From: Myxococcales bacterium | Lineage (GTDB): Bacteria > Myxococcota_A > Polyangia > Polyangiales > Polyangiaceae | Reading direction: 5' to 3' | NCBI GenBank assembly: GCA_023248745.1 | Contig: JAHFDZ010000022.1 | Location: 1-37,946, forward strand | DNA: 37,946 nt | In this document: positions 13,155-20,819 of the stretch, piece by piece | Numbering within the stretch: position 1 is the first letter of the stretch | Layout: the number at the start of each line of letters is the position of its first letter | Translations under genes and position numbers: made by a program | Notes under the pieces: generated by a model | Seen by the model: only the letters and a program-made list of their open reading frames with translations | The model's database searches: none | What the model was told of the DNA's origin: nothing

Positions 13155-13442
13155 CTAACGACTGCGGCACACGTTCTCTATGCAGCCACACTTCTCGGCG
13201 GGCGGTATCGCGTGTTCCCAATCGCAACCGGCGTCGGTCGCTGCCAGTGGTGGCTTACGACGCAGATGCGTGCACGACGCACCTTCCTGACAGGGATTGG
13301 ACACGATGACGCACTCCGTATCTTGCGTGCATCGCGGACACGCGTCGCCCGATGACGGACAGTCGTTGGTGAGCGTCTGCGCGCTGTGGCACGCGGTGAG
13401 CGACCAAAGCGCTACCGCAGAGAAAGTACACGTAAGGCGCAT
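13155..13442 (-). CDS. Small Cys-rich lipoprotein (95 aa)
   Basis: A short signal peptide ends in lipobox LTAC (Cys 18). The mature 78 residues have nine further Cys (DCPSS, ACPRC, ECVIV, PCQEG, SCTHL, GCDWE, CGCIENVC), giving a small disulphide-knotted domain typical of secreted proteins in this lineage. The gene starts only 2 bases from the first of three palindromic boxes that lie between it and the divergent blaI-like gene, so it is a likely member of the same regulon. The function is unknown; a periplasmic or envelope-stress role would fit the context. Confidence 0.75.
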   Translation of the reverse strand: MRLTCTFSAVALWSLTACHSAQTLTNDCPSSGDACPRCTQDTECVIVSNPCQEGASCTHLRRKPPLAATDAGCDWEHAIPPAEKCGCIENVCRSR

Positions 13443-13443
13443 G

Positions 13444-13456
13444 GCTAGTAACTAGC
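13444..13456. promoter_or_regulatory. Operator-like box 1 (GCTA-N5-TAGC)
   Basis: GCTAG-TAA-CTAGC is a 13-bp palindrome just upstream of the start codon of the Cys-rich lipoprotein (13442). Its half-sites match boxes 2 and 3. A repressor bound here would block that gene's translation-initiation region or promoter. BlaI/MecI-family repressors bind comparable short dyads, usually with TACA/TGTA half-sites; here the half-site is GCTA/TAGC. Confidence 0.6.
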
Positions 13457-13465
13457 ACCAAAACG

Positions 13466-13487
13466 ACATGCTAAAAAAATAGCATGT
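13466..13487. promoter_or_regulatory. Operator-like box 2 (ACATGCTA-N6-TAGCATGT)
   Basis: The strongest of three boxes: 8-bp perfect arms around an A6 centre. It lies midway in the 89-base divergent region, so it could control both the blaI-like gene and the lipoprotein gene. Confidence 0.7.
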
Positions 13488-13493
13488 TCGGCT

Positions 13494-13509
13494 TGCTAAA
13501 ATTTTAGCA
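13494..13509. promoter_or_regulatory. Operator-like box 3 (TGCTA-AAATTT-TAGCA)
   Basis: A perfect 16-bp palindrome 22 bases upstream of the blaI-like start codon. It contains TAAAAT (13497-13502), a plausible -10 element, so repressor binding would occlude RNA polymerase and give autoregulation of the blaI-M56 operon. The -10 assignment is inference. Confidence 0.7.
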
Positions 13510-13531: not shown

Positions 13532-13909
13532 ATGACGAAGCCGAGCACCCTTACGCGCCGCGAGCGCGAAATCATGGACATCCTCTATCGCCAAGGACGA
13601 GCGACGGCGCACGAGGTCCTAGAAGGTCTGACCGACCCGCCGAGTTACTCCGCCGTTCGCGCGCTCTTGCGCCTGTTGGAAGAGCGCGGTCACGCAAAGC
13701 ACATCGTCGACGGCCAGCGATACATCTACGCACCCGCCGTGGCCCGTGGAGATGCGCGCAAGACCGCGCTCTCGCATCTCGTCAAAACATTCTTCGCCGG
13801 CTCCACTGAAGAAGCCGTCGCTGCCCTTGTCGACCGTTCGAAGCTCTCGCGCGGGGAGCTCGATCGCCTCTCCGCCATTATCGATCGTGCCAAGAAAGAA
13901 GGACGCTGA
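13532..13909 (+). CDS. blaI: BlaI/MecI/CopY-family transcriptional repressor (125 aa)
   Basis: A winged-helix repressor of the Penicillinase_R family. The N-terminal half holds the HTH: LTRREREIMDILYRQGRATA, then AHEVLEGLTDPPSYSAVRAL, then LLEERGHAKHIVDGQRYIY for the wing. The C-terminal half (KTALSHLVKTFFAGSTEEAV, SRGELDRLSAIIDRAKKEGR) is the helical dimerisation domain where the cognate M56 protease normally cuts. ATG 13532 with an AAGG site 7 bases upstream is chosen over a GTG at 13511 that would overlap the operator region. The stop is one base from the M56 start, so the two genes are an operon, matching blaI-blaR1/mecI-mecR1 architecture. Confidence 0.93.
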   Translation: MTKPSTLTRREREIMDILYRQGRATAHEVLEGLTDPPSYSAVRALLRLLEERGHAKHIVDGQRYIYAPAVARGDARKTALSHLVKTFFAGSTEEAVAALVDRSKLSRGELDRLSAIIDRAKKEGR

Positions 13910-13910
13910 C

Positions 13911-15719
13911 ATGACTTCTCATTTCGATTCGATCTATCGGGTTTCATTGGTGCTTGGTGTTGCCCTTCTCGCGATGCCACTCCTGAAGAGCCAGTCCGCA
14001 GTTGCGCGGCGTCTTGTGCTCTCGGTTGCGTTCGCATCCGTGCTCGTCATTCCGTTCCTGCCCGCGTGGCACGTCGACGCGCCTGTCTATCGTGCGCTTC
14101 TTGCACGTGTCGTGTCCGAGCCGAGCGTCGCGGCGATTGGCGAGCAAGCCGCGCCATTGGCGGCCACAGGGGTTGCGCGATCGATCCACTGGCTGGTGTT
14201 CGCTTGGGCGATTGGCGCTTGCTTCGTCGCCGCGCGATTTCTGGTTGGTCTCGTCGTTGCGCAGCGACTCGTGGGCCGCGCAACATCGGATCCGACTGCA
14301 TGGGAGGCGGCGATCGCAAGCGCCGAACGAGTGACTGGCCTCCGGGCCGTCGTGCGCGTGTCGACCGCGATCGAAGCGCCGGCCGTGACGGGGATCGTCT
14401 CTCCGGTGGTCATCGTTCCCGTTTCCGCTGCGTCTTGGACTGACGACAGAAAGCGCGCGGTATTGCTCCACGAGCTTGCGCACGTGGCTGCCCACGATCT
14501 TGGCGTGCAGGTGCTTGCCACAATCGCGTGCAGTTTGCACTGGTTCAACCCACTGGCTTGGCTCGTGGCGCGGAGGCTGCGGCTTGAGCGTGAGCTTGCG
14601 GCCGACGAAGCGGTACTTCGATCGGGCGTGCGTGCGTCCACTTACGCTGCAGACCTGCTCGCGATCGCAGGAGCGGCGCCAGCGGGAGCAATCGCCATTG
14701 GAGAGAAGCCGCTTCCGAAACGTATCGCCGCGATCGTCGCCGAACGACGTCCGGTCGTTCTCAGCCCAACGGGTGCTTCGGCACTCGTCGTGGGAACTGC
14801 GGCGCTTGCATTCAGCGTGGCGTGCGCGACGAGCGCGGCATCGACGTCGCCAAAGCTCAAAGCGTCACAGGTGTCCGCACGAGCGGTCGATCGCGAGTTG
14901 CAAGCGTTGGCCGATCGCGAGTTAGAACGCATGGTCACCGAATCGAAGGGGGCGGGTGGCACTATCCTTGTGATGTCGCCAAACGGCGACGTGCTTGCGG
15001 ACGCCGGTGGCCATACCGATCGCCTCTACGTTGCGGGTTCGACGATGAAGGCCGTCTTGCTCGCGGCCGCCATCGATGAAGGCGTGGTGACTGAGAGTGA
15101 CGTCTTCGATTGCAGCAACGGCGTACGTTCTGGTCAGGTCATGCGTGACTCAACGCCGCTCGGGAAAGTAGCGTTGCCAGAGTTGCTCGCGAAGTCGAGC
15201 AACATAGGCTTTTCGCAAATATTTGATCGACTTGGCGCTGCTCGTTTGGATCGCGCCCTCCACCGATTTCACTTTGCGACGGCTCCAGAATTTGCCACGA
15301 CGCCTTCGGCTGATTGGAACGGCACCTCATTCGCGATCGGCGCCACGATGAGCACAACACCGCGTCAGGTTGCGCTTGCCTACGCCGCGCTTGCCAACGG
15401 CGGTGATGGCATCGTCACGTCGAGTACGGCCAAGCGCGTGGGCGCGCTCCTCGAAGGGGTTGTCGCAAAAGAGGACGGCACCGGAAAGAATGCGCGCGTC
15501 GCCGGCGTGCGTGTCGCCGGCAAAACGGGCACGTCAGAGTGGACCGCCGCCGACGGAAGCCGACGAAGCTACGCGAGCTTTGTTGGGTACGTTCCCGCTG
15601 AGCGCCCCCGGTACGTGATTTTCGTCGGGGTCGAGGCGGGTCCAGATGCAAGGGTGTGGGGCGGTGGTGCGGCTGCTCCGGTGTTCGCGCGCATCGCCAC
15701 GCGGGCGTTGACGCGCTGA
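13911..15719 (+). CDS. M56 metallopeptidase-penicillin-binding sensor fusion, BlaR1-like (602 aa)
   Basis: Start ATG 13911 is one base after the blaI stop; the longer frame is out of context. Domains in order: three N-terminal TM segments (about 8-25, 34-52, 88-118), an M56 peptidase core with zinc motif HELAH (187-191) and LERELAADEA (225-234), a fourth TM (about 287-305), then an extracytoplasmic penicillin-binding domain (about 335-600). The latter carries all three active-site motifs: S377-T-M-K380, S429/S430-N431 (KSSN) and K538-T-G-T541. Beta-lactam acylation of Ser377 would be signalled through the membrane to the protease, which would cut BlaI. The sensor looks closer to FtsI-type class B transpeptidases (AKSSNIGFSQI, MSTTPRQVALAYAALANGG) than to the OXA-like sensor of classical BlaR1. 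Confidence 0.92.
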   Translation: MTSHFDSIYRVSLVLGVALLAMPLLKSQSAVARRLVLSVAFASVLVIPFLPAWHVDAPVYRALLARVVSEPSVAAIGEQAAPLAATGVARSIHWLVFAWAIGACFVAARFLVGLVVAQRLVGRATSDPTAWEAAIASAERVTGLRAVVRVSTAIEAPAVTGIVSPVVIVPVSAASWTDDRKRAVLLHELAHVAAHDLGVQVLATIACSLHWFNPLAWLVARRLRLERELAADEAVLRSGVRASTYAADLLAIAGAAPAGAIAIGEKPLPKRIAAIVAERRPVVLSPTGASALVVGTAALAFSVACATSAASTSPKLKASQVSARAVDRELQALADRELERMVTESKGAGGTILVMSPNGDVLADAGGHTDRLYVAGSTMKAVLLAAAIDEGVVTESDVFDCSNGVRSGQVMRDSTPLGKVALPELLAKSSNIGFSQIFDRLGAARLDRALHRFHFATAPEFATTPSADWNGTSFAIGATMSTTPRQVALAYAALANGGDGIVTSSTAKRVGALLEGVVAKEDGTGKNARVAGVRVAGKTGTSEWTAADGSRRSYASFVGYVPAERPRYVIFVGVEAGPDARVWGGGAAAPVFARIATRALTR

Positions 15720-20262: not shown

Positions 20263-20622
20263 CTACCGCATGAGGCCTGTGAGCAAAGCGACGACGCGTT
20301 CGGCGATCGGCAGGCAACGGTCGGTCGCGCCAGACTCAGTGTCGCCTGCGAGCTCGGCAATCTCGACCGCGGCGACCGCTTCGATCGCCTCACCGCGCGC
20401 GATCGCAAACGCACGAGCCTTGTCGGGCCGCGTCACGCGACCGGCGCCCTCGGCAATGTTGAGACACGTGCTCTTCGCCGCACGGAGCGCTTGATCGCGA
20501 AGGTGCGCATCTTTGATGCGTGCTGCGCGTACCGCGAGAAGCAGTTGGACTGCGACTTCGTAGGCGACGAGTCGATGATGAGCCAGCTTTGAACGAGGAG
20601 GAGGTGTGATGGGGCTTTCCAT
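20263..20622 (-). CDS. Four-helix-bundle protein, 23S rRNA intervening-sequence (IVP) type (119 aa)
   Basis: ATG 20622 with a G-rich stretch just upstream gives a 119-residue protein, the usual size of this family. It has the typical pattern LVAYEVAVQLLLAVRAARI, then LRDQALRAAKSTCLNIAEGA with the near-invariant NIAEG, then KARAFAIARGEAIEAVAAVE, and a last helix LPIAERVVALLTGLMR. The founding members are encoded in intervening sequences of 23S rRNA genes; stand-alone copies like this are common and their function is unresolved. A longer in-frame extension to 20817 is not protein-like. The gene sits between GATCAGG repeats and next to an IS element. Confidence 0.85.
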   Translation of the reverse strand: MESPITPPPRSKLAHHRLVAYEVAVQLLLAVRAARIKDAHLRDQALRAAKSTCLNIAEGAGRVTRPDKARAFAIARGEAIEAVAAVEIAELAGDTESGATDRCLPIAERVVALLTGLMR

Positions 20623-20754
20623 GCCCCCCAACGCGCAGGTCGCATGACAGCGACGGGTAAGACGATTGACTATCGCGCGGGAGCTGGCGGGCGACGTGCG
20701 CGCCAAGGCGTGGGAAGCCCCATCACGGCGACGACGATGCTGGTCCACGAAGAG

Positions 20755-20806
20755 GATCAGGATCAGGTGATGAGGGGGATCAGGGCTGAAGGGGATCAGG
20801 TGATGA
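20755..20806 (+). repeat. Cluster of GATCAGG direct repeats
   Basis: GATCAGG occurs four times in 46 bases (20755, 20761, 20778, 20794). Two copies extend to GATCAGGTGATGA (20761-20773 and 20794-20806), spaced 33 bases apart. The cluster lies upstream of the four-helix-bundle gene and a few bases from the IS left end; a related inverted copy is on the other side of the gene. Confidence 0.7.
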
Positions 20807-20819
20807 AGGGATGGCATTC

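Follow-up and report, generated by a model that had tools for sequence, protein, structure and literature searches.

The window, that is, the whole 37,946-nucleotide stretch of DNA that was analysed, contains two adjacent genes: a blaI-like repressor gene and a receptor gene whose product joins an M56 (BlaR1-type) zinc protease to a C-terminal PBP transpeptidase (TP) domain (Table 1). We designate the receptor M56-TP. The reading frame is open across 13746-15719, and the natural start codon is the ATG located 1 base past the blaI stop codon; because of this one-base gap, we infer that the two genes are co-transcribed. The Pfam matches to Peptidase_M56 (1.1e-30) and Transpeptidase (residues 351-595, 1.1e-39) place both assignments far beyond chance.

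Table 1. Features of the blaI/M56-TP locus and operator-bearing genes of related genomes
Feature	Position	Strand	Remarks
Divergent cysteine-rich lipoprotein-like ORF	13155..13442	-	95 aa
Possible third operator, degenerate GCTAGTAACTAGC	13444..13456	.	Beside the start codon of the divergent ORF; imperfect relative to the consensus
Predicted BlaI operator 1, TGCTAAAAAAATAGCA	13469..13484	.	25 bp from operator 2; conserved upstream of blaI in orthologues
Putative sigma-70-like promoter, TTGCTA-N18-TATGAA	13493..13522	+	Same arrangement at 11 operator loci
Predicted BlaI operator 2, perfect palindrome TGCTAAAATTTTAGCA	13494..13509	.	On the -35 element and spacer of the putative promoter
blaI-like repressor	13532..13909	+	125 aa; Penicillinase_R, 3.5e-26
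M56-TP receptor (blaR1-like)	13911..15719	+	602 aa
Peptidase_M56 domain	13932..14726	+	Residues 8-272
HELAH (HExxH)	14469-14483	+	Residues 187-191, by coordinate
ELAAD (ExxxD)	14592-14606	+	By coordinate
TM4, ending in Ala304-Cys305 (lipobox-like)	14766..14825	+	Model helix 286-305
Class B PBP (FtsI/PBP3)-type transpeptidase sensor	14868..15716	+	Residues 320-602
STMK	15039-15050	+	Residues 377-380, by coordinate
SSN	15195-15203	+	Residues 429-431, by coordinate
KTGT	15522-15533	+	Residues 538-541, by coordinate
G042 metallo-beta-lactamase-fold lipoprotein	L196:6187-7200		Pfam Lactamase_B_2, 7e-12
Operator pair and stand-alone lipoprotein FtsI-type transpeptidase	L212:2959-4223; L213:2523-3814		

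The AlphaFold2 model of the receptor (mean pLDDT 84.5) has four hydrophobic helices (residues 2-24, 30-49, 93-123, and 286-305) and a confidently folded C-terminal domain. The HELAH motif and the C-terminal STMK, SSN, and KTGT motifs were all found in the translation where the original prediction had placed them, the model shows the four transmembrane segments that it had named, and the translation contains both strings that it had quoted, AKSSNIGFSQI and STTPRQVALAYAALANGG. Alignment with S. aureus BlaR1 revealed that D196 and R271 are the equivalents of BlaR1 D210 and R294; the roles of the M56 protease residues in BlaR1 have been described (PMC9834060). By analogy with the sidedness of BlaR1, the sensor would be displayed extracytoplasmically. 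No M56 match other than M56-TP turned up in the genome of the window.

The sensor is a class B PBP (FtsI/PBP3) TP domain, far from the sensors of BlaR1 and MecR1 and from OXA enzymes, as the original prediction had proposed for this M56 receptor. The catalytic motif set is complete but is not in itself unusual, since S. aureus BlaR1 and a MecR1 carry STYK, SVN, and KTGT; thus, the motifs alone do not discriminate and were rejected as proof of FtsI identity, and the discrimination comes from NCBIfam scores, phylogeny, and fold. The receptor scored 102 bits on the SpoVD, 81 bits on the PBP2, and 63 bits on the FtsI model versus 18.6 bits on the class D beta-lactamase model, and 69.3 bits on blaR1_generic (NF000326), a score that stems from the M56 part only and lies below the 400-bit cut-off. 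The best PDB sequence match of the sensor was an FtsI/PBP2-type protein (7e-26). PBP3 transpeptidase domains ranked first in the Foldseek search with the sensor model, which superposed on Chlamydia PBP3 with a Z-score of 38.5 (1.9 Å over 281 residues, VIA-align), the highest Z among the class B PBP matches. The best 50 fold matches listed were all class B PBPs; BlaR1 sensors and OXA enzymes did not appear among these 50, which is not counted as exclusion. The sensor retains the FtsI segment TPxQVAxAYAALANGG, and it has neither a pedestal domain (the RGxIxDRxG motif is absent from the window protein) nor PASTA domains.

In two trees, the sensor nested inside myxobacterial FtsI as sister to the PASTA-bearing FtsI of family f16 (support 97/96 and 98/94), with the proteins of L132, L135, L141, and L142 nearest to it. 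Family f16, presumably Nannocystaceae, belongs to the same class as the window's genome. BlaR1, MecR1, and OXA enzymes formed a separate side of the tree (100/100), and the sensor fell outside the class D clade. Clustering with BlaR1/OXA sensors, which the original prediction had named beforehand as evidence against itself, was put to an approximately unbiased (AU) test, and a single clade of M56-TP and BlaR1/MecR1 was rejected (p-AU 8e-6). Placing M56-TP, BlaR1, and the class D proteins on one side of a branch could not be rejected at the 5% level (p 0.118), since the class D branch is long and can join the tree close to the stem of M56-TP; this result limits claims on the deep origin of class D, not the kinship of the sensor with FtsI.

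The repressor gene precedes M56-TP in every orthologue with upstream sequence examined. The predicted operators follow a BlaI-type palindromic consensus, TGCTA-N6-TAGCA, with two sites in a 25-bp register. The second site carries TTGCTA-N16-18-TANNNN in 11/11 operator pairs examined; therefore, a repressor sitting there would mask the spacer along with the putative -35 element. The degenerate GCTAGTAACTAGC is a weak candidate for a third operator and was not seen in the aligned orthologues. Perfect operator matches in the window's genome were confined to positions 13469 and 13494. A wider regulon in this genome was considered and rejected: relaxed operator searches gave scattered matches that did not exceed the reversed-pattern control. 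The divergent 95-aa ORF has one homologue among the 108 family genomes (54% over 82 aa) and is, for that reason, probably a real gene. It may be an extra operator target; as a conserved target it was rejected, with a single homologue in 108 genomes and an upstream gene that varies among orthologues.

In the window's family, apparently Polyangiaceae, roughly 10 of the 108 genomes have a full-length M56-TP homologue, and such homologues also occur in a few Myxococcota outside it; within the family, the operon is conserved but patchy. The copy in a Labilithrix luteola MAG (L032) scored identically to that of G004, which makes Polyangiaceae the probable family. All 12 homologues keep (i) the protease residues HExxH, ExxxD, the Asp after HExxH, and the helix-9 Arg, and (ii) the sensor motifs SxxK, S[ST]N, and K[ST]G[ST]. 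At 37-63% identity, the homologues share the catalytic residues of either domain as well as the operators. Apart from blaI, no conserved neighbours were found among the orthologue loci. No protein in the 193 genomes of the class scored above the cut-off of the canonical BlaR1 model; most matches were class D domains without M56. In G001 (L210:1980-2723), which is a sister genome within the genus, the operators and blaI are kept and the receptor is reduced to an 84-codon ORF that joins its first residues to its KTGT end, which is either an internal deletion or an assembly fault.

The tandem operator pair occurred in 10 of the 108 family genomes and in 2 of 379 genomes sampled across the phylum, there in this genus only, a sample that contains few of the other carriers of the pair; the reversed-pattern controls gave 0 in both sets. 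Owing to this high specificity, the pair is a tool for finding inducible response genes in these bacteria. In the orthologues, the pair lies before blaI in the 25-bp register, with the exceptions of G023 (one site degenerate), G550 and G551 (a single site), and G152 (a single degenerate site). Within the 108 genomes, the pairs precede blaI, a lipoprotein PBP (G550 and G551), or a metallo-beta-lactamase (MBL)-fold lipoprotein (G042), save one in G023, which is a short tandem repeat containing CCCGGG. The G042 genome (16.04 Mb) has a second, perfect pair in a 24-bp register immediately before the MBL-superfamily lipoprotein, which is of the Lactamase_B_2/B_3 type and a beta-lactamase only putatively; its homologue in G023 is 60% identical and has no operators. 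In G550 and G551, a pair precedes a 401-410-aa lipoprotein made up of an FtsI-type transpeptidase domain alone, ~80 kb from the blaI-receptor operon. These operator-bearing, resistance-type genes of the relatives are unlinked to the operon; by analogy with the staphylococcal circuit, the MBL-fold and PBP lipoproteins would stand where blaZ and mecA do. In the window's genome, G026, G028, and G022, the pair is limited to the operon itself; no second operator-bearing target was found in the window's own genome, and no beta-lactamase was found among the scanned flanking genes of its operon, where the divergent neighbour is the 95-aa ORF.

In the AlphaFold2 model, the TM4 helix ends exactly at Cys305, and in eight orthologues, nothing from R271 to V354 is invariant in between except A304 and C305. 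A cysteine at the TM4 end is present in 10 of 12 homologues, preceded by Ala in 9 and by Gly in G152; in the G550 and G551 receptors, a run of alanines takes its place. The Ala-Cys looks like a lipobox that closes an N-in/C-out helix, which suggests processing between the protease and the sensor, hypothetically of the LspA type. In S. aureus BlaR1, a signal peptidase cuts the linker at Gly331, which is thought to aid receptor turnover (PMC9834060). Equating Cys305 with this site (Gly331/Gln332) was rejected: Cys305 aligns with Gln327, five residues from the cut, and so it can be claimed only that the two lie in the same linker. Similar TM4-end cysteines were observed in some Firmicutes M56 proteins (L087, L095, L103, and L110).

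Taking together the computed domain identities, motif conservation, operator pairs with the genes behind them, and phylogeny, the best explanation is that the receptor works like BlaR1 with an acylable sensor recruited from the divisome, and we consider it likely that blaI and M56-TP form an autoregulated, beta-lactam-triggered two-gene circuit of the BlaI-BlaR1 kind, in which the sensor derives from a myxobacterial FtsI (PBP3) stripped of pedestal and PASTA domains. The mechanism of S. aureus BlaR1, which inactivates BlaI directly, served as the template (PMC9834060). In the circuit that we infer, BlaI dimers on the two operators would cover the promoter and hold the operon off; a beta-lactam would acylate the periplasmic sensor behind TM4 at Ser377; the membrane helices would pass the acylation signal on to the M56 zinc protease in the cytoplasm; the activated protease would inactivate BlaI; and loss of BlaI would turn on the operon together with any gene that has an operator pair, which in relatives would be the stand-alone lipoprotein PBP or the MBL-fold lipoprotein. 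The original prediction, a variant antibiotic or cell-wall sensor, was thus supported in part, with beta-lactam sensing favoured by the BlaI repressor, the BlaI-type operators, and the operator-bearing targets in relatives. Some points count against this explanation. The window's genome has its operator pair only at the blaI-receptor operon, and no remote effector was found there; the MBL-fold protein, of the Lactamase_B_2/B_3 type, is only putatively a beta-lactamase and has an operator-free homologue in G023; and BlaI-family repressors can serve other signals too, as CopY does.

A different signal is conceivable. The native reaction of a class B PBP domain with stem peptides yields an acyl-enzyme, and all sensor motifs are intact; the FtsI-type domain could bind stem peptides of the peptidoglycan, or donors linked to lipid II, and report septal wall synthesis or damage rather than an antibiotic. 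Binding of a peptidoglycan dipeptide has been reported for BlaI/MecI repressors as well (PMC3305447), which fits such a role. We nevertheless regard wall sensing as quite unlikely: the domain lacks the pedestal that FtsI has, acylation by every stem peptide would leave the receptor constitutively on, and the operator-linked genes in relatives resemble antibiotic-resistance genes. A proposal compatible with the BlaI-BlaR1-like circuit is that the protein, once induced, would serve as a spare PBP or a beta-lactam sink, with autoinduction sufficient by itself for protection; one gene would supply the sensor, the signal protease, and, after LspA cleavage at the internal lipobox of TM4, a lipid-anchored PBP. 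The Ala-Cys at the TM4 end, the four genomes in which the operator pair is limited to the operon, and the stand-alone lipoprotein TPs in the same clade (100/99), with this operator pair in front of the G550 and G551 genes, all point in this direction; the missing pedestal domain and the loss of the TM4-end cysteine in G550 and G551 point away from it, and we hold the proposal to be doubtful. If it were true, induction would report the antibiotic and at the same time supply a decoy or replacement transpeptidase domain, and some lineages would have split off the lipoprotein PBP under the same operators. That the receptor is an ordinary BlaR1 whose divergent class D (OXA-like) domain merely resembles FtsI is very improbable. 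The shared SxxK/SxN/KTG motifs, the M56-BlaI context, and the AU test that tolerates M56-TP with BlaR1 and class D would agree with it, but the rejected clade with BlaR1/MecR1 alone, the NCBIfam scores, the class B PBPs that fill the best 50 fold matches listed, and the retained FtsI segment do not. To a decayed or non-functional fusion we likewise give hardly any credence: the patchy distribution and the receptor scar of G001 would fit decay, but the window copy has an intact reading frame and intact motifs, and homologues at 37-63% identity keep both sets of catalytic residues as well as the operators.

The described BlaR1/MecR1 receptors sense beta-lactams through a class D beta-lactamase-like domain, and no other sensor appears in the papers that our search found; M56 proteins that carry class D sites have been reported in a survey of class D enzymes (PMC9045261). 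Our literature search found no published description of an M56-FtsI fusion receptor. The window system shares with the BlaR1/MecR1 systems of Staphylococcus and Bacillus (i) the M56 HExxH...ExxxD motifs and the helix-9 Arg; (ii) a C-terminal SxxK sensor; and (iii) a BlaI/MecI-type repressor in the same operon, with two or more operators at the promoter. The four predicted helices and the folded domain at residues 320-602 would fit the four membrane helices and the extracytoplasmic C-terminal sensor of those receptors. It differs from them in its FtsI-type rather than class D sensor, in scoring 69 of 400 bits for blaR1_generic, in the operator TGCTA-N6-TAGCA, in the gene order of blaI then receptor, in having no adjacent beta-lactamase or low-affinity PBP gene, and in the lipobox-like Ala-Cys that ends TM4. 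Since it has no class D sensor, no score at the curated level, and no adjacent resistance gene, we do not file the receptor as BlaR1.

Compared with the FtsI/PBP3 of f16, its sister in the tree (98/94), the sensor has a TP domain of ~40% identity with the same motifs and the RFHF..P segment; in contrast to FtsI, it is fused to M56, has TM4 as its anchor where FtsI has an N-terminal helix, and is devoid of pedestal and PASTA domains, and because the pedestal is absent, the receptor is not an FtsI. The stand-alone lipoprotein TPs of other Myxococcota (L143, L145, L120, and L121; G550 and G551) fall in the same TP clade but have no protease, and they carry SVGK, STGK, SSVK, or SVTK in place of STMK. 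Like mecA-encoded PBP2a, the lipoprotein PBP of G550 and G551 is a BlaI-operator-linked PBP, here in a Gram-negative, and it therefore holds the place of mecA in the circuit; unlike PBP2a, it is a lipoprotein with an FtsI-type TP domain alone. If confirmed, M56-TP would be a penicillin receptor built directly from the target of the antibiotic, the divisome transpeptidase, in Gram-negative soil bacteria. The M56-BlaI module would then take interchangeable acyl-enzyme sensors, and the route from acylation to the protease could therefore be tested by comparison.

Several other proteins were noted alongside these comparisons. Five Verrucomicrobia proteins (L047:5833-8214, L057:2191-5598, L067:5503-8487, L069:5953-9882, and L077:5626-8958) fuse M56 to an apparently complete class B PBP, with the RGRILDR[NH]G pedestal motif and a TP domain, and a BlaI gene lies just upstream of each. 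The trees place them away from the window's type, and SxxK is lost in four of the five (ATYS, SAFV, STFM, and ASFS) and kept as STYK in L067; in these fusions, a PBP was probably recruited as the sensor on a separate occasion, and most of them are probably catalytically dead. In the f16 FtsI proteins (L132, L135, L141, and L142), KTST replaces KTGT at the third catalytic motif. The Klebsiella plasmid pFRPDR_4 (L160:124-1996) carries an ORF for a stand-alone FtsI-type TP domain that adjoins blaLAP-2 and groups with E. coli FtsI (100/98-99). Elsewhere in the window, positions 20266-20817 of the reverse strand encode a 23S rRNA-intervening-sequence-type protein (PF05635, 2.6e-12).
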